From: a virus
DNA length: 31,460 nt
Virus record (IMG/VR): IMGVR_UViG_3300005289_000073
Location: 1-31,460 of that record
Direction: 5' to 3' (one strand)
Position 1 is the first letter of the stretch; every line of letters begins with the position of its first letter. Below are positions 16,543 through 31,460 of this stretch, one piece after another. The notes beneath the pieces were generated by a model. It saw nothing but the letters and a program-made list of their open reading frames with translations, ran no database searches and had not been told where the DNA came from. The position numbers and the translations under genes are program-made.

Positions 16543-18953
16543 GCATTGCGAACTGCCTCACGAAACTGGTCTCGGCGAAGCGGATCACCCAGAAGCAGGC
16601 GGATGATGCCCTGGCGCTGCACGAGGGCTTGCAGGGGCGTCTCTACCCGAACATGGGCCCGACATCGGCGGAAGCTGCCAGCGCGCTTGAGGCAGCCCGC
16701 GTGATGGCGCAGGCGGCGCAGGAACGGAAGCTGATGGCCTCGAAGCAGGCGATTGCCTACGCGCAGGCTCTCGACCGGATGGAGAAGCACCCCGACGGCA
16801 AGACTGTCGGGCTTCAAAGCATGCTCGTCCGCGACAACATGGAAGGCGGCGCGGCGACCGGGAACGCAATCCACATCGACGGCCACAGCGAAAACGTGAC
16901 AAAGCGCCTCCTCGGTATGATGGATACGGCGATGCGGCCCTATGCATCGAGGCTGGCCGGCCTGAGCCAGGACACGGAGTCCATCTGGAATATCGTCCGC
17001 GAGCTCTTCGGCAAAGACACCGGCGACGACGCGGCGAAGGCTGCAACGGCGGGCTGGCAAAAGGCGACGAAGTACGCGGTCGATCGCGTGAAGCGCGCCG
17101 GCAAGCCGCTGTCTGTGCTCGAAGACTGGCGCCTGCCGCAGAACTGGGATAGCTCGCGCGTCCGCAAGTTCTCTGAGGCGCAATTCGTCGACGACCTGAT
17201 GACGGAATTCGAGGCCGGTAATCTGCGCGTCATGGACAAGCAGGGCAACGGCGACGCCCCGAAAGCGGCGGTCTCCGGGATCATCGCCAACGCCTACAAG
17301 GATATCACGTTGGGCAAGGCGAACAGCGGAACTGGCGGCTTCTCCAATCAGCTGCGCGTGTTCCGCTTCGAAGATCCGGAAGCCTATATACGCCTCATGA
17401 AGAAATACGGGATCGGCGACGGCGGGCTCTACAACACGTTGATGGGCCACCTCGGCGGGATGGGGCGCGAGATCGCGACCACGGAAATCCTCGGCCCGAA
17501 CTACGAGGACAATTTCAAGCGCCTCCTCGATGTCGCCACTGCCGACGATGCAACGCGCAACAAGACGGTCGGCTCGAAGCTGAAGCGCTCACTCTCACTC
17601 AATAGCCCGGCCGCGGTGAAGCGCACCTATGACGCGGTGACCGGGAAACTCGGTGTCGCGCAATCCGAACTGCTGGCCGGCATCGGTGGCGGCATGCGCA
17701 ACCTGCAGACTGCCGCGCGTCTGGGCTCGGCGACAATCGCCGCTCTGCCCGGCGACAGCTTCACGGCCTCGCTTGCCGCCAACTATAACGGCATTCCCGC
17801 GACCGCCGTGCTCAATCGCCTTGTCCGCGACCTGACGACGAACAAAGAGGGCGCCGAAGAGATCGCGCGACAGGTGAACCTCACCGCTGCGTCTGTCATG
17901 GATCACGCCCTCGGCTCGAAACGGTTTGCCGATGAGGTCGTCGGTCAAGGCTTCACTGGCCGCGTCGCTGATACCGCCATGCGCATGTCGGGGATCAACG
18001 TCTGGACGGAAGGCCTAAAACGCGCCTGGGGGATGGAGTTCAATGGCTTCATCGCCCGCCAGGCTGACAAGGCGTTCAACGAACTGGATCCAGCTTTCCG
18101 CAATTTCCTGAACCGCTACGGGTTCACGCCGGAACAGTGGGACAAGCTGCGCGCCACTCCGCCGATCGAGGCCGACGGCGCCCGGTTCTTCGACGTGAAC
18201 GCTGTCGAGGATCAGCAGCTTGCCGACCGCCTGATGTCGGCCATGCTCGACGAGCGACGTTTCGCCATCCTCGAACCTGATGCTCGAGTCCGTGGGGCGA
18301 TGACGGCCGGCCAGCAACGCGGCACCTTCATGGGCGAAATCGCTCGCAGCGCCACCCAGTTCAAATCGTTCCCTATGACGTTCATGATGACCCACATGAT
18401 GCGCTCGGCGATCCAGGACGGCGCGTGGGGCAAGGTCTCTGCCGGAACGAAGCTGGTCACGCTGATGACTATCGCCGGCGCTGTCACCTCGCAGATGCAA
18501 TCCCTCATCGCCGGCCGCGATCCGCAGGACATGAGCAAGCCGCAGTTCTGGTCACAGGCGTTCATCCGCGGCGGCGGTGGCGGCATGCTCGGCGATCTCG
18601 TCTATTCCTCGTCCACGCGCGGCGGTGACGGGCTCACCGAATACATCGCCGGTCCCGGCCCGGGCGCGGTGATCTCTGCCACCGGCGATCTCGCGCAGGC
18701 GCTTTCCGGCAACAAGGAAATGACGGGCAAGATGCTGGCGCAGCATATCAAGGCGTGGACGCCGGGTTCGTCGCTGTGGTTCTCGAAGATCGCAACCGAT
18801 CGAATCCTCTTCGATCAGCTGCAGTCAATGATCGATCCGAACTATCGGCAATCATTCGCGCGTTACGAGCGTCGGATGAAGAAGGACTTCGGCCAGGGGT
18901 TCTGGTGGCGGCCGGGTGAGGCGTTGCCGTCGCGCGGGCCGCAACTGCCTTAA
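16539..18953 (+). CDS. Large internal virion/ejection protein, 804 aa
   Basis: This largely helical protein is the last gene of the virion block and is the likely counterpart of the large ejected core proteins (T7 gp16-like position). Visible features are an alanine-rich helical N-terminus (AASALEAARVMAQAAQERK), a glycine-rich hydrophobic stretch (LLAGIGGGMRNLQTAARL), ARSATQFKSFPMTFMMTHMM, and a C-terminal basic end (YERRMKKDFGQGFWWRPG). I see no enzymatic motif. ATGA coupling to the previous gene supports co-expression. Its stop overlaps, tail to tail, the stop of the minus-strand Arc-like gene. Confidence 0.72.
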   Translation: MSIANCLTKLVSAKRITQKQADDALALHEGLQGRLYPNMGPTSAEAASALEAARVMAQAAQERKLMASKQAIAYAQALDRMEKHPDGKTVGLQSMLVRDNMEGGAATGNAIHIDGHSENVTKRLLGMMDTAMRPYASRLAGLSQDTESIWNIVRELFGKDTGDDAAKAATAGWQKATKYAVDRVKRAGKPLSVLEDWRLPQNWDSSRVRKFSEAQFVDDLMTEFEAGNLRVMDKQGNGDAPKAAVSGIIANAYKDITLGKANSGTGGFSNQLRVFRFEDPEAYIRLMKKYGIGDGGLYNTLMGHLGGMGREIATTEILGPNYEDNFKRLLDVATADDATRNKTVGSKLKRSLSLNSPAAVKRTYDAVTGKLGVAQSELLAGIGGGMRNLQTAARLGSATIAALPGDSFTASLAANYNGIPATAVLNRLVRDLTTNKEGAEEIARQVNLTAASVMDHALGSKRFADEVVGQGFTGRVADTAMRMSGINVWTEGLKRAWGMEFNGFIARQADKAFNELDPAFRNFLNRYGFTPEQWDKLRATPPIEADGARFFDVNAVEDQQLADRLMSAMLDERRFAILEPDARVRGAMTAGQQRGTFMGEIARSATQFKSFPMTFMMTHMMRSAIQDGAWGKVSAGTKLVTLMTIAGAVTSQMQSLIAGRDPQDMSKPQFWSQAFIRGGGGGMLGDLVYSSSTRGGDGLTEYIAGPGPGAVISATGDLAQALSGNKEMTGKMLAQHIKAWTPGSSLWFSKIATDRILFDQLQSMIDPNYRQSFARYERRMKKDFGQGFWWRPGEALPSRGPQLP

Positions 18954-19192
18954 GGCAGCTTTCCAAGCAACGCCTCAATAATCTTTTGCTGTTGTTCGAA
19001 TGCTTCCAGCATCCGATCGATGCGCCCATCAATCGCGCCGTGTTCTAATGTGGACTGCAGGCGGAAGACTATTTCAGCATTCAGAGATCGTCCTGACTGT
19101 TGGGCTGCCGCTTCTAATTGAGCTCTGAGCGACGGCAACATCCTGAGCCCGAATGGTGCAATATTGCCGATCTTTTCACCGCCTTTTGTCAT
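18950..19192 (-). CDS. Arc-like ribbon-helix-helix repressor, 80 aa
   Basis: The core APFGLRMLPSLRAQLEAAAQQSGRSLNAEIVFRLQ lines up by eye with the P22 Arc pattern FNLRWPREV...ENGRSVNSEIYQRV: a short beta strand that enters the DNA groove, then two helices. A C-terminal helix (IDRMLEAFEQQQKIIEALL) could form tetramers. I chose the ATG ending at 19192; a start at 19228 would place the operator inside the gene. No SD precedes it. It is divergent from the second Arc-like gene and probably represses both across the 19198-19241 palindrome. Confidence 0.8.
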   Translation of the reverse strand: MTKGGEKIGNIAPFGLRMLPSLRAQLEAAAQQSGRSLNAEIVFRLQSTLEHGAIDGRIDRMLEAFEQQQKIIEALLGKLP

Positions 19193-19197
19193 GGCTG

Positions 19198-19241
19198 CAC
19201 TTTGTAGACAAACTGCAGTTGCATTCAATGACTACAAAGTG
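19198..19241. promoter_or_regulatory. Palindromic operator between divergent Arc-like genes
   Basis: CACTTTGTAG (19198-19207) and CTACAAAGTG (19232-19241) are perfect 10-bp inverted arms with a 24-bp spacer. One arm covers the probable -10 of the leftward promoter and the other lies in the spacer of the rightward promoter, as expected for an autoregulatory operator. A related 10-mer TTTGTAGACA occurs at 19201-19210 and again at 19528-19537. Confidence 0.7.
19201..19228 (-). promoter_or_regulatory. Predicted sigma70-type promoter for the leftward Arc-like gene
   Basis: Read on the minus strand, TTGAAT (19228-19223) is followed after 16 bp by TACAAA (19206-19201). The start site would be close to the ATG at 19192, giving a very short or no leader. 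Confidence 0.45.
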
Positions 19242-19247
19242 TAATTA
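19219..19247 (+). promoter_or_regulatory. Predicted sigma70-type promoter for the rightward Arc-like gene
   Basis: TTGCAT (19219-19224), a 17-bp spacer, then TAATTA (19242-19247). The operator arm CTACAAAGTG fills the end of the spacer, so bound repressor should block polymerase. Confidence 0.5.
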
Positions 19248-19288
19248 GTTTCATTGTGTAACTATGGTTGCCAAAAGGGGAACGTGCT

Positions 19289-19471
19289 TTGAAAACGAAG
19301 AAGCCGCCGTTCGGACTCCGCATGCCAGATGAGGTGAAAAACTGGGTTGCGCTTCAGGCGAAGGCCAACATGCGTTCCCAAAACTCGGAAATCGTCGTTG
19401 CACTGAAAGAGAAAATGGAACGCCAGGCCGACACAACCATTTCTGAAAAAGGGCCGGCGAAGCGCAACTGA
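19289..19471 (+). CDS. Arc-like ribbon-helix-helix protein, 60 aa, TTG start
   Basis: PPFGLRMPDEVKNWVALQAK followed by NMRSQNSEIVVALKEKME is a second ribbon-helix-helix of the Arc/Mnt family and clearly related to the minus-strand neighbour. I place the start at TTG 19289, because AGGGGA sits seven bases upstream; a TTG at 19268 is an alternative. The C-terminus is a short charged tail. It is transcribed away from its partner from the shared operator region, the arrangement of Arc and Mnt in the P22 immI region, and like immI it lies just upstream of the tailspike gene. Confidence 0.78.
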   Translation: MKTKKPPFGLRMPDEVKNWVALQAKANMRSQNSEIVVALKEKMERQADTTISEKGPAKRN

Positions 19472-25052: not shown

Positions 25053-25456
25053 GCAAGGTAACCGCACTCACCGAGATCGACGCCGTTGCTGACAACGACG
25101 TGATGTATATCTGGGACGCCAGTACCCCGAGTGCGCCAGACAAGAAAGTACCGTTCTCGAAGCTGCGACCGTCCGGCGTCAGGATCACGAACAACTTTCG
25201 CTATGAGGGCAACATCACGATCCCGGCGCTCGCGGCCGGCGTCGAGGGGGATGCCACAATCGCCATCGCCGGCGCTGCGGTGGGCGATCACCTAGTGTTC
25301 AACCTGACCGCCGCGCTGCCTGGAAATATTGCGGTCCTGCATGCATGGGTATCTGCTGCTGACACAGCGACCGTGCGCTTCAGGAATACGCATGCCGCGA
25401 ATGCCTATGCGGGCGCGGCGATTGCATGTGTTGCGCTGGCGAGCCGATCGGTCTAG
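25049..25456 (+). CDS. Putative small structural protein after lysis cassette, 135 aa
   Basis: The ATG at 25049 overlaps the o-spanin stop; a GTG at 25040 is less likely. The N-terminus (KVTALTEIDAVADNDVMYIWD, then KKVPFSKLR) is like the short segments found in phage tail or fibre accessory proteins. The rest is beta-rich (NITIPALAAGVEGDATIAI, DHLVFNLTAALPGNIAVLHA, TVRFRNTHAANAYAGAAI), as in head-decoration or fibre-tip domains. No enzyme motif. A virion role is likely but the particular part is unknown. It is the last rightward gene before attP. Confidence 0.65.
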   Translation: MSKVTALTEIDAVADNDVMYIWDASTPSAPDKKVPFSKLRPSGVRITNNFRYEGNITIPALAAGVEGDATIAIAGAAVGDHLVFNLTAALPGNIAVLHAWVSAADTATVRFRNTHAANAYAGAAIACVALASRSV

Positions 25457-25457
25457 G

Positions 25458-25499
25458 CGTTCCCCACCATGTCCGGGGAATGGGGGAATGTGGGGAACG
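25458..25499. repeat. Left arm-type sites: inverted CGTTCCCCAC pair
   Basis: CGTTCCCCAC (25458-25467) and GTGGGGAACG (25490-25499) are perfect 10-bp inverted copies. Between them are two near-copies on the minus strand (CATTCCCCGG and CATTCCCCC, read from 25482 and 25490). They are likely arm sites for the integrase N-terminal domain. The palindrome could also fold in RNA, but it lacks a T-run. Confidence 0.65.
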
Positions 25500-25530
25500 T
25501 CCCGACACGATTTCAAACACTTGACCCAAA

Positions 25531-25575
25531 TTCCTAATCTGGGGGCCGCGCGTTCGAATCGCGCCGGGATCACCA
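25531..25575 (+). other. att core = 3' part of tRNA-Arg(CCT), not a complete tRNA
   Basis: It reads as anticodon loop TTCCTAA (anticodon CCT, U33 present), anticodon-stem 3' strand TCTGG, variable loop GGGCC, T stem-loop GCGCG-TTCGAAT-CGCGC, acceptor 3' strand CGGGATC, discriminator A and an encoded CCA. The upstream bases CCCAA do not form the full partner strand and no D arm or 5' acceptor is present. It is therefore a core that restores the host tRNA 3' end on integration. Confidence 0.85.
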
Positions 25576-25601
25576 TAAAAATCAAAGACTTATTTTCAGT
25601 C

Positions 25602-25633
25602 CGTTCCCCAGCATTCCCCGGGGCGTTCCCCAC
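25602..25633 (+). repeat. Right arm-type sites: direct CGTTCCCCA copies
   Basis: CGTTCCCCA occurs at 25602-25610 and again at 25624-25632, with CATTCCCCGG between them (25612-25621). Together with the left side this gives four exact 9-mers and at least three one-base variants around the core. The last copy ends right beside the integrase stop codon. Confidence 0.65.
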
Positions 25634-26899
25634 TTATGTTTGCGGAACGTTCTTTTGGCCGCGATGGGCGACACGAAGCTCGGCGACCTGCTTCGTTTTT
25701 TCGAGCGTATTTCTGTTGTAGCGCTGCGTCGTCTGAGCGTTTTTGTGGTTGGCATGATGGCGCAGATGTTCGAGGTCGGCGCCAGCATCAGAGCCCTCGG
25801 TAACACCGCCGGCGCGGCTGTCGCGATTCCAGACATTCTTCGGAACGCCTACCTCGTCGGCGAGCGCTCGCCACCGAAGGCGGAACTCTCTTCCGCGCCA
25901 CGGTATGCCGGTTGTCTCCATGATGATCATCGGCCCGACCCGCTTCTCTGGCGGGATCAAATCGATCATCTCGCGCAGGAAGGGATATGCCATCGTGTCG
26001 TGCTCGGCGACGACATCATCGACCTTGCTCGTCGTCTTCGTGAGAATGCCGTTCTCGTCGAGGTGAGACCACAGCAAACCGTCACGCCACCGTCTGCCGC
26101 GGTCAACGATGCCGCCGGCCTTCGCATCGGTGACCTTCTCCCAGCGGCCGATCACATCGATCTGGCGAAGGGTAAGCTCGAACTGAAGCGCCTGGGCGAG
26201 TGCGATCGACACCATTCCCTTCTTGACGGCCAACTCGCATATCGCTTTCGCCTGAGCGAAGGTGATCGCCTCGGTGCGAGCCTTGGGCGAACTGAATTCC
26301 ATCTTCGACAGGATCGTATCGAGGCGGAAGCATTCGGTGATATTGAGCACGACGCCGAATCCGATGACGATCCGGAGCAACTGCATGGCCTTGTAGGCTC
26401 GGCGCATCCGCTCGGGGTTCGGTGGCAGGATGATGCCCTGCTCTGCCATCTTGGCACGGTGCGCGGCCTGCTTTTCGGTGTCGGCCGCTGGCTGGCGGAA
26501 GTTCGCATACCAGCGCTTGAAGTCCAGGCCGGTCAACTTCTCGAGGCGCCGGTCGCCGACAGTCTTCTCTAACAGGCCCAGGCTCTCGTCGTACATCTCG
26601 CGGGTGTTCGACTTCACCTCGTGATACGGGCTTTCCTTCGTCTGCTGGTACAGGCGAATGACGGATTTCAACGTCCCGTCATACTGCGCTTTGCCGCTTA
26701 CGCCCTTGCCAGACAGCCATTCCTTGAACTCGGACTGCAGAACACGGCACTGTGCCGCGATCTCGTCGTCGGTTCCGGTCAGGCGTTTCGTCTTGATCGG
26801 GTATTCCTTGGCTTTGGGCGACGAGGATTTCGCCACCCAATAATGGGCGACACCATCGGCCCGCCTTCGGGTTTTCAGACCCGGTGCTTTCACTACCAT
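25634..26899 (-). CDS. int: Tyrosine-recombinase integrase, 421 aa
   Basis: It catalyses site-specific recombination between attP, which adjoins its 3' end, and a host tRNA-Arg gene. The N-terminus (LKTRRRADGVAHYWVA) suits the arm-binding region, and a core-binding helical domain spans roughly 70-170. The catalytic domain has LTLRQID (Arg245), DSRAGGVTEG (Arg362), HHANHKNAQTTQRY (His385) and nucleophile Tyr394. The His normally three residues before the second Arg is absent (Arg359 there). GGAG precedes the ATG. It is the last gene of the leftward operon and its start overlaps the excisionase-like gene by 7 bp. Confidence 0.92.
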   Translation of the reverse strand: MVVKAPGLKTRRRADGVAHYWVAKSSSPKAKEYPIKTKRLTGTDDEIAAQCRVLQSEFKEWLSGKGVSGKAQYDGTLKSVIRLYQQTKESPYHEVKSNTREMYDESLGLLEKTVGDRRLEKLTGLDFKRWYANFRQPAADTEKQAAHRAKMAEQGIILPPNPERMRRAYKAMQLLRIVIGFGVVLNITECFRLDTILSKMEFSSPKARTEAITFAQAKAICELAVKKGMVSIALAQALQFELTLRQIDVIGRWEKVTDAKAGGIVDRGRRWRDGLLWSHLDENGILTKTTSKVDDVVAEHDTMAYPFLREMIDLIPPEKRVGPMIIMETTGIPWRGREFRLRWRALADEVGVPKNVWNRDSRAGGVTEGSDAGADLEHLRHHANHKNAQTTQRYNRNTLEKTKQVAELRVAHRGQKNVPQT

Positions 26900-27138
26900 T
26901 TTTCGTCTCCATCACGGCCAGGATTGGCCTGCGGGGCTGATGATGATGCGAGTCCATACCTGCGATCAAGGAAAGCTTGGCAGGCCGGCCAATAGCGGCG
27001 GTTCTGGAAGAGCGGATCGGGCGACGGGAAACCTGACTTTTGCAGGGCAGGCAGCGCGGTATCTAATAGGGCCGCGCTGATCCCCATACGCTCGGCGATC
27101 TGCCCGTCGGTCAGAAACAGGGCGTTTGCCTTGCTCAT
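26893..27138 (-). CDS. Excisionase-like small DNA-binding protein, 81 aa
   Basis: ANALFLTDGQIAERMGISAALLDTALPALQKSGFP is a MerR/excisionase-type winged helix-turn-helix: a target-selecting helix (QIAERMG) then a recognition helix. RYWPACQAFLDRRYG follows. Overlap with the integrase gene upstream of it suggests it controls the direction of integrase (Xis-like) or regulates int. It starts inside the stop of the preceding gene (ATGA). It could instead be a general phage regulator, since excisionase activity cannot be read from sequence. Confidence 0.7.
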   Translation of the reverse strand: MSKANALFLTDGQIAERMGISAALLDTALPALQKSGFPSPDPLFQNRRYWPACQAFLDRRYGLASSSAPQANPGRDGDEKW

Positions 27139-27371
27139 CTTGTCGAGATCCTTTCCCGCGCCAAATATCCGTGATGGCTAAGCGACCCGCGAAATCCCCC
27201 GACGCACCCGCTGTAGGCGATACCGTCATCCTGACCGGTGAGGTGATCTGGGTTGACGACGACGGCGTCCTGCTGAGAGATGCGGGAGGCGTGTTCCTGC
27301 CGCATCTTCTCAATCTGCGCATCCTTGGCGTTGATGACGGCAACGAGCCGGTTCGCGTAATCGTCGCTCAT
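27135..27371 (-). CDS. Small unknown early protein, 78 aa
   Basis: The ATG ending at 27371 follows GGAG and overlaps the upstream gene's stop (ATGA); its own stop overlaps the next start in the same way. The first 30 residues are a charged helix (NRLVAVINAKDAQIEKMRQEHASRIS). The second half, with many Gly, His and Ser, is less protein-like. Unbroken ATGA coupling on both sides supports it as real. Function unknown. An open frame on the opposite strand (from ATG 27174) also looks protein-like, so coding strand is less certain here than elsewhere. Confidence 0.55.
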   Translation of the reverse strand: MSDDYANRLVAVINAKDAQIEKMRQEHASRISQQDAVVVNPDHLTGQDDGIAYSGCVGGFRGSLSHHGYLARERISTR

Positions 27372-27538
27372 GGCTTCTCCACTTGCGCTGCGAGGGCGGA
27401 GACGACACCGATACCGTCGCACTTCAGGCAAATCTTTCCAGATTTCCCTTTGCCAAATCCGGCGCATTTAACACACAGTTCCATGTCTCCACCGGATCTC
27501 ATGCGATTGATCGCGCCTACATTGATGCTGATTTTCAT
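27368..27538 (-). CDS. DnaJ-type zinc-finger-like microprotein, 56 aa
   Basis: MELCVKCAGFGKGKSGKICL and the following KCDGIG give two CxxCxGxG motifs (Cys22/25 and Cys37/40 from the longer start), the zinc-binding repeat of the DnaJ cysteine-rich domain. Here it stands alone without a J domain. The longer start at 27538 overlaps the upstream stop as ATGA. A second ATG at 27484 with GGAG in front would give 38 aa. Both ends couple to neighbours. It may bind a protein partner or nucleic acid; role unknown. Confidence 0.65.
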   Translation of the reverse strand: MKISINVGAINRMRSGGDMELCVKCAGFGKGKSGKICLKCDGIGVVSALAAQVEKP

Positions 27539-28488
27539 CTCTCCACCTCCCCGGACTTGGTAGAGGAGAGGGCGGCGCGGGCGGCCTCGATGTCCGAATG
27601 GCGGATCGAATAAGCGCCGGCATTGTATTGGGCGTTCTTCGGCACCTGAAGTGATGCAAACGGCTCCAGCGCCTTCGTCAGCCGCTCAATCACTGCACTC
27701 GCTTCAACTTCGCTCGGGTTGGGCTGGGGAGCGGCGGATAGGGACGGTAAAGGCATCCACTTAATAGGGGTAAACTCCAGCTCCGGGTTGAAGCCCGCAT
27801 CCTGCGAAAACCAGAAACCATTCTTCGTCAAGCCGCCCGTGCAGATCACGCTGCGCCCTCCGATGCGGATAGTTACGCCATCGGATAGGAGCGCCCGCAT
27901 CTTCTTTCGCGGGAAGGTGTCGATCGGTCGCCATCCCTCCGGCACGCTTACCGGCTCTCTGACTGCCACCGGGGCGGCGTAGAGGGGGACTATCTCAGAG
28001 TTCATTCCGCGTTCTTCGGCTCGATTCTGTGCAATCTGTTGATTGACGAACGCTTGATCACGATAAAGACCATCGCGGACCAACCAAGCCACAGGCTCAA
28101 TGTCTGCTGGCGTGGATAGGGCGGAACGGATGCGAGCTTCGTAGTCGGCCTGTGCGGCGGCTTTGGCGAAATCGCTCATTGAATATGATGCATGTGCGTC
28201 ATCGTTGTTCAGCAGATATAAGCACCATCCGTCTGGCTCGATCTGAATTACGTATTCCCCGAACGGCGTCTTTGCCACACTGTTGCCAGTACGAGAGCAG
28301 AATACCGTCCACTCCAACGCTTTGACCTTCACCACCGGCTTGCCTGCTTCAGCGGAGCGGGAGAGGGCGGCTTCGAGGATGTCGACGCGCACGTATTCCT
28401 GAGATCCGCTGATCGCTTCACGGCAAGTCCAGAAGCCGTCAGCATCCTGCGCAACTCTTATCCGTTCGGGTGTGTTGGTTACGGTCAT
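27535..28488 (-). CDS. Hypothetical early protein, 317 aa
   Basis: AGGAG lies eight bases before the ATG. The protein is soluble with several modules: an N-terminal FWTCREAISGSQEYVRVD, then VKALEWTVFCSRTGNSVAKT with a beta-rich part (FGEYVIQIEPDGWCLYL), PVAWLVRDGLYRDQAFVNQQ, PEGWRPIDTFPRKKMRALLS with FTPIKWMPLP, and a C-terminal helical part (IERLTKALEPFASL, DIEAARAAL). Such K-x-LEW and GWRPIDTFP segments recur in unrelated-looking rhizobial phage early proteins, suggesting a mosaic of small binding modules. No enzyme motif seen. Confidence 0.65.
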   Translation of the reverse strand: MTVTNTPERIRVAQDADGFWTCREAISGSQEYVRVDILEAALSRSAEAGKPVVKVKALEWTVFCSRTGNSVAKTPFGEYVIQIEPDGWCLYLLNNDDAHASYSMSDFAKAAAQADYEARIRSALSTPADIEPVAWLVRDGLYRDQAFVNQQIAQNRAEERGMNSEIVPLYAAPVAVREPVSVPEGWRPIDTFPRKKMRALLSDGVTIRIGGRSVICTGGLTKNGFWFSQDAGFNPELEFTPIKWMPLPSLSAAPQPNPSEVEASAVIERLTKALEPFASLQVPKNAQYNAGAYSIRHSDIEAARAALSSTKSGEVER

Positions 28489-28489
28489 G

Positions 28490-28801
28490 TCAGGCTCCTG
28501 CCTTCGAAAGGGCTGCGCGAACGAGCGTGAGAAGCTTCATTTCTTCGTTGGGGATGTAGCCGTCCTGATCGCAGTCAGCGTCGGCGCGGTTGTCGAAGTA
28601 CTCTTCGCAAGCTTCGAGGGCTTCGAGCAGGTCAGGGGAAGCGGCAACGAGCCGAGTGTTAGCTTGGAGGCTGCCGTCCTCTCCGATGTATCTCGAATAG
28701 ACGAGAGCGATCAGGTTTGATTCCGTGTTGCTGTTTTCGAGGCGGGGCGTCCGAACAGCAACGTCATCGAAGATCCACGGTCCAGGAGTGTGCTTGCTCA
28801 T
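28490..28801 (-). CDS. HTPGPW-type phage protein, 103 aa
   Basis: The start MSKHTPGPWIFDD belongs to a widespread phage family of unknown function that opens with HTPGPW. RLVAASPDLLEALEACEEYFD in the C-terminal half is also characteristic. The ATG ending at 28801 overlaps the upstream stop (ATGA); the frame is open further upstream, but that sequence is the other gene's shadow. The family lies in early or replication regions of many temperate phages. Function unknown. Confidence 0.75.
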   Translation of the reverse strand: MSKHTPGPWIFDDVAVRTPRLENSNTESNLIALVYSRYIGEDGSLQANTRLVAASPDLLEALEACEEYFDNRADADCDQDGYIPNEEMKLLTLVRAALSKAGA

Positions 28802-29235
28802 GCCAGCACCGCCCCGGCCACAAGGCCCTGTTGACGGTGGGAAAGCGTGCCGTAGTGGCGCTGAAGCCGAGCCGCCGAGTTGTGGCCGAAGCCGTTCTCG
28901 ATCCGGTAGCTCTCGCACCAGCTTTCCCAAGCGTCCGAAGTCCGCACGAAAGTCGGCAGAACGTCTTCGTCTTCCGGCGTCCGGTCGAAGTCTTCGAGGA
29001 AGGCCGATGCCATTTCCTCCGTCACGTCCTCGCCGTGCATCGCGTCCAGGTCGAAGCGGATGAACTTGGCCGCATCGTCGTCCAGATGAGCCTTGAGCGC
29101 GTCCTTTACGGTCTCATAGGACGTGCCGAAGACATCGGTCTCGCCGAAGTAGAAGCCATCCTTGAAGGCCGAGACGGTCATGATGACTTCGCGTGCCTGG
29201 ATGAAAGGCGTTCCTGCGGTTCTGGTGGTGAGCAT
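28798..29235 (-). CDS. Hypothetical early protein, 145 aa
   Basis: A perfect AGGAGG (29244-29249 on the complement) lies eight bases before the ATG ending at 29235, so I prefer it to an upstream start at 29268. The protein has VSAFKDGFYFGETDVFGTSY, an acidic middle (EDVTEEMASAFLEDFDRTPEDED) and WESWCESYRIENGFGHNSAARLQRHYG near the end. The acidity could suggest a DNA-mimic or protein-binding role, but nothing proves it. It is the best ribosome site in the early operon. Confidence 0.65.
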   Translation of the reverse strand: MLTTRTAGTPFIQAREVIMTVSAFKDGFYFGETDVFGTSYETVKDALKAHLDDDAAKFIRFDLDAMHGEDVTEEMASAFLEDFDRTPEDEDVLPTFVRTSDAWESWCESYRIENGFGHNSAARLQRHYGTLSHRQQGLVAGAVLA

Positions 29236-29268
29236 TTCGAAAACCTCCTGTTGAGGATCACTTTCCAA

Positions 29269-29286
29269 ATCCGCCCGAAGGCGGAT
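29269..29286 (-). repeat. UUCG-tetraloop hairpin in early operon leader
   Basis: On the minus strand this reads ATCCGCC-TTCG-GGCGGAT, a 7-bp stem capped by the very stable C(UUCG)G tetraloop, in the 62-bp gap ahead of the 29235 gene. It is followed by only three Ts, so it may act as an mRNA end-protector or partial terminator. This gap is the only larger break among the coupled early genes apart from 29481-29630. Confidence 0.6.
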
Positions 29287-29297
29287 GCAGAAGGGGA

Positions 29298-29480
29298 TCA
29301 GTCCCCATAGGGTGAGAAGGCATCGAGGCAGTGGGTGTTATCTTCATCGGCATCAGCCCACTCGCGATTGAGGGCGCTGTCGCATTCGTTGCAGACCTGC
29401 ATGCCGTTGTGTCCCGCTAGCATCTCGTGTTCTTCCGAGACGCCGCACCGTTCGCACTTCGCGTAAATCCGAGTTCCCAT
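29298..29480 (-). CDS. Zinc-ribbon-like small protein, 60 aa
   Basis: MGTRIYAKCERCGVSEEH and MQVCNECDSAL provide two CxxC pairs, fitting one zinc ribbon, followed by an acidic C-terminus (REWADADEDNTHC). I place the start at the ATG ending at 29480, nine bases after GGAG; the frame continues upstream to 29600 with sequence of doubtful quality. Such mini zinc ribbons in phage early operons often bind host proteins or DNA. The function here is unknown. Confidence 0.65.
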   Translation of the reverse strand: MGTRIYAKCERCGVSEEHEMLAGHNGMQVCNECDSALNREWADADEDNTHCLDAFSPYGD

Positions 29481-29547
29481 TTCCGTCTCTCCATCCGTTG
29501 ACCAGATCTGCCTGCCGAGGCGGGGAGTGTCTGGGGTGTGCTGAACT

Positions 29548-29661
29548 CTTTCGATATTCGTTTGGGTCCTCGTAGCGCTGGATGCTTGAGGCGCGCGCAT
29601 AACCCATTCCGTGGGCCAATGCGTCCATACTCAGTCCTGCGCGCTCGCGCAGTCGGCGGAA
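29548..29661 (-). pseudogene. XRE-type helix-turn-helix fragment in a broken frame
   Basis: One minus-strand frame reads FRRLRERAGLSMDALAHGMG, then YARASSIQRYEDPNEYRK. This is the pattern of XRE/Cro-C1 repressors: L-R-E-x-A-G-L-S, turn, then A/S-S-I-Q-R-Y-E-D-P. No proper start codon opens the whole domain; ATG 29628 lies inside helix 2. A possible start, ATG 29684, is in the frame of the 87-aa gene and would join only by a one-base shift at a C5 run (29664-29668). After RK the repressor-like pattern is lost. It is either a decayed repressor or a frameshifted gene. Confidence 0.5.
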
Positions 29662-29894
29662 CTGGGGGTGCGAACGGCGGTCATTGCGGTGGCACGGCGG
29701 CTGATGATGCGTGCCATCGCGTCGCGGCGGGCGGGGGTGAGCTTGCTGATGAACGTGTCCATGTCCCGGCCGAAATTGGTCCAGGCGCGGTCACCGTCTT
29801 TGCCGCTGTCGATCACGCCGGCGCGCTCAAGGTCCGACCGGTCAAGGTTGATCCGGACAAGCGAGATGTGCAGCAGATCGGTTCCTGTGATCAT
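29631..29894 (-). CDS. Hypothetical early protein, 87 aa
   Basis: The ATG overlaps the upstream gene's stop (ATGA). The protein has a basic helical body: HISLVRINLDRSDLERAGVI, then RAWTNFGRDMDTFISKLTPARRDAMARII. The last 17 residues, from MTAVRTPSS on, look out of character and overlap, in another frame, the start of a helix-turn-helix-like sequence. This suggests that its natural end may lie elsewhere or that a frameshift has occurred nearby. Function unknown. Confidence 0.6.
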   Translation of the reverse strand: MITGTDLLHISLVRINLDRSDLERAGVIDSGKDGDRAWTNFGRDMDTFISKLTPARRDAMARIISRRATAMTAVRTPSSADCASAQD

Positions 29895-30220
29895 CGGGAG
29901 ATTCCTTGCTGTCTGTGATTGATGGTGCCGTGGGTGCGTTGGTTCGGCGCCTGGCCCGCGTCCTCGGCCTCTTCCTGCTCGATCAAGTCGTGGTAGCCAG
30001 AGCCGATATCGTCGGCGATGCCGTCGGCGCCGTAGAGATAACCGTCGTCTCCGCCGTCGGTGGCGATGATCTCGGCGATCGTGTTCATCAGCGCGCGGCC
30101 AAGCCTGATCATGGCGTCACGGTGGTTCTTGGCGCCGGCCTTACCGAAATCCTGATCCGCCTCGTCGATCGCTTGGCGCATCGTCTGAAACGATCCGGCG
30201 ATGTGGAGACGAGCGTTCAA
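29891..30220 (-). CDS. Hypothetical early protein, 109 aa, TTG start
   Basis: The TTG start ending at 30220 overlaps the previous stop as TTGA, mirroring the ATGA couplings elsewhere in this operon, and GAGGAG lies upstream. Sequence: MRQAIDEADQDFGKAGAKNHRDAMIRLGRALMNTIAEIIA, then an acidic part with DGGDDGYLYGADGIADDIG. It is helical with an acidic tail and no known motif. ATG at M14 is a possible alternative start. Function unknown. Confidence 0.6.
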   Translation of the reverse strand: MNARLHIAGSFQTMRQAIDEADQDFGKAGAKNHRDAMIRLGRALMNTIAEIIATDGGDDGYLYGADGIADDIGSGYHDLIEQEEAEDAGQAPNQRTHGTINHRQQGISR

Positions 30221-30413: not shown

Positions 30414-31460
30414 TCACTCTCCGTCGATCAGTCCGGTGACATAGGTGTTGGTGGAGTCGGCGTCGGCGAGGCCCTTCAGACGGTCGTTGTGAGCGCGGAG
30501 AACCGACTGTGCCGCCTTCATCGTCTCAGCGCTGGCACCGCTGAACCGCGGCTTGAACGCCTCGTGCTCGACCTTCAGGCCGTCGCCGTCGATCTCACCG
30601 GCAAGCTTGCCGTGATATTCCGTCAGCAACACGCGATCATGGGTGGGGGCCGGCTCTTGGGAGGAGCGCGGGCCGGCCCCCGTATCAACCTGCCGGGAGG
30701 AGGAGGGAGCAGGTCGATCTTGTGTGTTCTCGCCACGCGCCCATGAGCGAAGGCGCTGGCCGGTCTCATATGAAACCTGCTGGCCGGGGCGGAAGAACTG
30801 CGAATAGGGAGGGTTAAGCTTTCCGTAGAACTCGCCGCCCTGCATCAACGGGACGCCCTTTGCATCGGGCGTGACCATGAAGGAAATCGTCATGTCGTAG
30901 AGCATCCCCTGCTCGCAGATGGGTTGCCAGCCGACGTTCTGAACTGTCGTGCGCTTCCGGCCCCTGTCGTCTTCGACTTCAACCGGCTTGGTTACTTCTC
31001 GAGCGCGGAAGCAGAAGATGACGTGCGCGCGGACCTGACGCAGGTTCTTCATCAGGTGCGTCTTATGCTGAGCTTTCGGAACGGCCCAAGCCGGGAAATT
31101 GGTCTTGTGGATTTCCCAGTCCTGCATCTCTTCGTACGGCTTCTTCGCCAGCCGGGCCATCTCGGCATAGTGCATGTCATGGAGACCGCCGACGCCTTCC
31201 CACTCGTCGGACGCGGAATCGATAACAACGACCTTGGCCCCGACCTTCTCGACAGCCTCGTCGATCGCGTCCCAGATCGCCTTTGGCGTGAAGGGCGGGC
31301 GCATATCTTTGTATTTCACGCGGAACAGGAATTCTTTCAGCAGCTCCGACTGCGGGCGCGGGTCGCTCGGCGTCGGGAAATAGTGCCGGGCCCGACCGCC
31401 TTCTGTGTCGATGAAGGCAATCGGCTCTTCGCCAGCCAAGCCAGCAGCCAACAATAGGGC
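30414..31460 (-). CDS. Sak4-like RecA-type recombination ATPase, N-terminus cut by window edge
   Basis: 348 codons are visible and the frame is open to the right edge (ALLLAAGLAGEEPIAFIDTEGG). That sequence normally follows the Walker A loop of phage Sak4/AAA-type ATPases, so the P-loop lies just outside. Walker B is KVVVIDSASDEWEG. HLMKNLRQVRAHVIFCFRAREV and GMLYDMTISFMV fit the RecA core. A proline/serine-rich linker (about 30,640-30,730) leads to a C-terminal helical part. Sak4 proteins work with single-strand annealing and recombination during phage replication. It is the first visible gene of the leftward early operon. Confidence 0.82.
   Translation of the reverse strand, partial: ALLLAAGLAGEEPIAFIDTEGGRARHYFPTPSDPRPQSELLKEFLFRVKYKDMRPPFTPKAIWDAIDEAVEKVGAKVVVIDSASDEWEGVGGLHDMHYAEMARLAKKPYEEMQDWEIHKTNFPAWAVPKAQHKTHLMKNLRQVRAHVIFCFRAREVTKPVEVEDDRGRKRTTVQNVGWQPICEQGMLYDMTISFMVTPDAKGVPLMQGGEFYGKLNPPYSQFFRPGQQVSYETGQRLRSWARGENTQDRPAPSSSRQVDTGAGPRSSQEPAPTHDRVLLTEYHGKLAGEIDGDGLKVEHEAFKPRFSGASAETMKAAQSVLRAHNDRLKGLADADSTNTYVTGLIDGE

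Follow-up and report, generated by a model that had tools for sequence, protein, structure and literature searches.

The window, i.e. the whole stretch of 31,460 nucleotides analysed here, is a 31.5-kb viral record (IMG/VR record IMGVR_UViG_3300005289_000073) of a phage of soil bacteria, whose right end cuts the gene of an AAA_24-type ATPase (30414–31460), upstream of which relatives carry an intact CI gene. This gene and all the features described in this and the following paragraph lie on the minus strand. To the left of the ATPase gene are g29891 (29891–30220), gene A (29631–29894; 87 aa, MITGTD...), gene B (29298–29480; MGTRIYAKCERCG..., zinc-ribbon-like from its sequence and from weak zinc-ribbon matches), g28798 (28798–29268), g28490 (28490–28930), and intact integrase and xis-like genes (25634–27138).

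Between genes A and B, and overlapping both, a frame of 145 codons is open from 29790 to 29356, and both LRERAGLSMDALAHGMGYAR and ASSIQRYEDP are encoded in it. The part homologous to phage repressors comprises ~42 residues (29670–29548), i.e. the codons for PQFRRLRERAGLSMDALAHGMGYARASSIQRYEDPNEYRK, corresponding to helices 1–3 of a helix-turn-helix (HTH) domain; it was delimited by profile matching and by tblastn and blastn alignment to 34 distinct homologues. Outside these limits, the open frame is gene A, gene B or the intervening stretch read in the wrong frame. The remnant is out of frame relative to gene A (29894–29631), keeps its coding pattern and has no internal stop. No ATG, GTG or TTG precedes it in its own frame until ATG 29628, which lies inside helix 2 and two bases after the stop codon of gene A, in agreement with the initial annotation of this locus, which had noted that the HTH frame has no usable start. 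That annotation had also proposed that a one-base shift at a run of five cytosines (C5; 29664–29668) would attach the HTH to ATG 29684, which is in the frame of gene A and yields MTAVRTP; run, start codon and peptide are indeed at these positions.

When this frame was tested for HTH matches, they were readily obtained. A profile of 20 intact repressors, run against the window, matched it with an E-value of 4.4e-23 over model positions 10–51 of 269, while the second-best match in the window had an E-value of 3, and shuffled windows gave zero matches. The Pfam family HTH_31 also matched (E-value 5e-5), although the match fell slightly short of its gathering score, as a fragment would be expected to. 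Given the strength of the profile match and the silence of the shuffled windows, the HTH pattern is true homology, not chance. Matches were found in 26 viral contigs (48–76% identity), and at least one Bartonella MAG is among the matches listed from a search of genome contigs with the fragment. The nearest homologues are 70–78% identical over about 37 residues; the "repressor protein CI" of Sinorhizobium phage phi2LM21 (phi2LM21_p16) is 72% identical over 36 residues. The lysogeny region of phi2LM21 contains one CI-like gene and one Cro-like gene (PMC5537653). Intact homologues are thus at hand: they are S24-type CI repressors (HTH plus S24 domain) from rhizobial phages and prophages (L002–L030, L060, L074). 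Nearly all of the 34 distinct homologues compared run on through the rest of the repressor, and in intact ones the frame stays open for 121–279 codons from the corresponding point.

Compared with phi2LM21 CI and its homologues, the remnant has HTH helices 1–3 in common with them, but is without the start, the promoter/operator block, helices 4–5, the linker, the S24 domain and the adjacent divergent cro gene. The XRE HTH domain itself is thereby incomplete, as the region of helices 4–5 is absent, and of the properties of an S24-type repressor the remnant displays the homology in the recognition part of the HTH, with no full HTH, S24 domain, start or promoter. The remaining ~215 repressor residues are absent from the window, and the repressor profile found no other S24/CI piece in any of its six frames. 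The initial annotation had stated that the frame loses sense after 38 residues; the loss is confirmed (after about 40), with the qualification that it stems from the missing remainder of the gene and not from a single frameshift. Many homologous cI genes have a conserved block, TGTCAACGTGGAAAACGTAAACG, just upstream of their start, which was not found in the window even when three mismatches were allowed. This block followed by a second GCGTAA is strongly conserved upstream of cI in L002–L018, L060, L074, L078 and L085, and the two are likely to be the promoter/operator of this repressor clade. Near the remnant we found no sigma-70-like site, promoter pattern, terminator, tRNA or Rfam family.

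The two flanks of the remnant are sharp. DNA similarity to the homologues ends at 29661 on one side and at 29539–29566 on the other. Gene A is conserved from residue 1 to about residue 70; its homologues (L029, L031, L032; 72–76 aa), which occur in Ensifer plasmids and in L029, end at or a few codons past window residue 70, i.e. about where the remnant starts, so the last ~17 residues of gene A are DNA of the joint and the remnant read in another frame. On the other side, gene B, with GGAGAG about 8 bases ahead of its ATG 29480, starts just past the remnant. Since the relatives of gene A end where the similarity to repressors begins and gene B starts just beyond it, the repressor piece is a leftover, truncated and enclosed by a joint on each side.

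Homologues of g28490 are found downstream of CI in the clade of the remnant (L011, L015, L017, L022) and also in phiLM21. A homologue of g28798 (39%) likewise follows CI in L105, as do weaker ones in L109–L111; relatives of gene B and g28798 were not found in a short-pattern search of IMG/VR. As these homologues follow CI in other phages, the remnant probably arrived together with its old neighbours, g28798 and g28490, in the variable region bounded by g29891 and xis. g29891 is kept in the four closest relatives of this phage and is paired with gene A in Ensifer. Homologues of this pair (29631–30220 in the window) adjoin Ku genes in Ensifer plasmids and in L029, and in L032 they are near a LigD-like gene too; these are bacterial end-joining repair loci.

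The substitutions in the remnant are informative as to its age. Counted by codon position, its differences from the nearest homologues (e.g. 9, 4, 14) fall mostly at the third position, and the truncation therefore looks recent. The same third-position bias is seen between intact homologues, so that either little neutral decay has occurred since the truncation, or the divergence is mostly older than the truncation.

We consider it highly probable that the feature is the fossil 5' end of a CI (HTH plus S24) repressor gene of the phi2LM21 clade, lying at a mosaic joint. According to this scenario, an early-gene block from a different rhizobial phage, with the start of cI and its old downstream neighbours on it, would have joined behind gene A, in the leftward early operon, by non-homologous recombination, and the upstream promoter/operator and about 80% of cI (the downstream part) would have been lost at or after the joining. 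Both the donor and the order of the events are what we infer; the same joint was not seen in any relative. The locus has the marks of a recombination scar: sharp homology limits, intact flanking genes, and a segment that is absent from the relatives. Against this reading counts the uninterrupted coding pattern of the remnant, which is as in a piece that is still translated, and the joints may also be those of an assembly chimera. Temperate phages commonly carry gene fragments at their mosaic joints. Such fragments are likewise truncated, lie between intact genes and border a segment absent from the relatives; the remnant differs from the usual ones only in its origin from an immunity repressor. 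With helices 4–5, the linker and the S24 domain absent, the remnant presumably yields no functional protein, and in all likelihood it is a recombination scar of the ordinary kind, not a working switch. The suggestion of the initial annotation that this is a decayed repressor is borne out in that a CI fragment is present without the remainder of the gene. The locus thus provides a concrete case of a part of an immunity repressor left at a mosaic joint, and it cautions that a strong HTH in a shifted frame need not mean a programmed frameshift or lost lysogeny, above all in incomplete records. The practical value of this finding is in annotation.

To judge the one-base shift at the C5 run proposed by the initial annotation, we scored both possible extensions of the remnant with the repressor profile, in a frameshift-aware manner, and compared them with sites drawn at random from this genome. 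With the larger non-redundant profile set neither reached significance (p 0.56 for the upstream and 0.14 for the downstream extension), and a downstream p of 0.04 obtained with a smaller set did not hold in the larger one. As a repressor N-terminus, MTAVRTP resembles the homologues by one Thr only, and the pattern VRTPxFRxLRE is absent from IMG/VR contigs according to a pattern search. Even if the shift is accepted, it would leave ~50 sensible residues of ~265, and so it does not restore a repressor. There is no convincing evidence for the C5 run as a frameshift site, and the one-base shift is neither needed nor demonstrable. We find it unlikely that a cI gene starting from ATG 29684 (MTAVRTPQFRRL...) decayed in place, losing its frame by one-base deletions (placed at the C5 run and again past EDPNEY) and then most of its length. 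The shift would put a Thr where most homologues have Thr, the KEF of many homologues is encoded in another frame past EDPNEY, and a one-base gap follows EDPNEY in several of the blastn alignments; however, L060 aligns past EDPNEY without a gap, the p-values given above support neither extension, and the promoter/operator is missing. Moreover, gene A continues directly into the fragment, while a promoter lies ahead of the intact homologues, and close relatives have their CI elsewhere.

The other possibilities raised for the C5 run fare worse. An error of sequencing or assembly, behind which the real genome would have an intact repressor at this place, could be sought in the homopolymer run, the record being an IMG/VR contig, but a single-base change cannot explain the loss of about 215 residues together with the promoter, and immediately behind the fragment gene B begins with a ribosome site of its own; as long genes in the rest of the window are undamaged and full length and the read quality looks good, such an error is highly improbable. 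A programmed frameshift would make use of the overlap of the two frames at the C5 run and join the N-terminus of gene A to the HTH, giving a fusion with a regulatory role. We find this hard to credit at all: homologues of gene A stop ahead of the C5 run and carry no fused HTH, the run does not form a canonical slippery heptamer in the frame of gene A, and the product would still be a truncated HTH followed by gene B in the wrong frame. There is also only the slightest chance that the truncated HTH is translated, e.g. by reinitiation at ATG 29628, and acts as an interfering or decoy regulator against incoming phages of the phi2LM21 type.

A pattern search for relatives of the ATPase gave nothing; they were retrieved later by a search with the integrase, which found 15 related records. 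The four closest (L098–L101) have integrases of 81–82% and TerL proteins of 82–89% identity, and their leftward operon consists of the ATPase, g30217, g29891, a variable stretch, xis and int. In their early regions we found no homologue of gene A, gene B, g28798, g28490 or the remnant. The last search for the remnant, in 12 records, was empty; it was run without a positive control, and a near-identical query had earlier found intact homologues. An intact S24 CI (about 222 aa), whose HTH is a different one, lies 4–6 kb upstream of the ATPase gene in L098, L099 and L101, and in L100 there is a weak CI match only. As the right end of the window cuts the ATPase gene and the records of the relatives are 44–45 kb long, compared to 31.5 kb here, the corresponding CI would be in the ~12 kb that are missing from this record, and a working repressor is to be expected there; these ~12 kb could hold anything, and it is from the relatives that we infer a working CI for this phage.

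These relatives also bear on the proposal that the remnant is the former immunity repressor and that the phage has become virulent or depends on a pair of Arc-like proteins. Such a pair is present at 18953–19471, and there is no intact CI within the 31.5 kb seen, but int and xis are intact, and the close relatives carry their intact, different CI beyond the right end of this record, in the part unseen here; we thus judge this proposal very unlikely, and a loss of lysogeny is not supported. The remnant itself says nothing about the ability to lysogenize, and the relatives suggest that the phage can form lysogens. In comparison with L098–L101, positions 27140–29890 of the window form a hypervariable cargo stretch, from g29891 to xis, in phages that are otherwise similar.

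The order of genes (terminase, portal, capsid, tail, structural, spike, lysis, int, leftward early genes) is shared with temperate podoviruses of the epsilon15/phiV10 type, and phiV10 has its own repressor at the far end of the leftward operon. In contrast to these phages, the integrase is on the other strand, the early genes differ, and the identity of a structural protein is only about 28%. Hyphomicrobiales prophages found via the structural protein do not share the early region, and named phages gave no megablast match to the leftmost 25 kb. The Arc-like pair is a divergent pair of ribbon-helix-helix proteins (Pfam Arc, E-values 9e-6 and 8e-10) with the structural genes on one side and the tail spike on the other, a location reminiscent of the immI region of P22. 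At 25456–25634 the lysis genes run directly into int, whereas in the prophage records L099 and L101 the record ends with int, and the opposite strand carries the terminase genes; from this adjacency the window seems to be an excised or virion form, with attP probably at 25456–25634.
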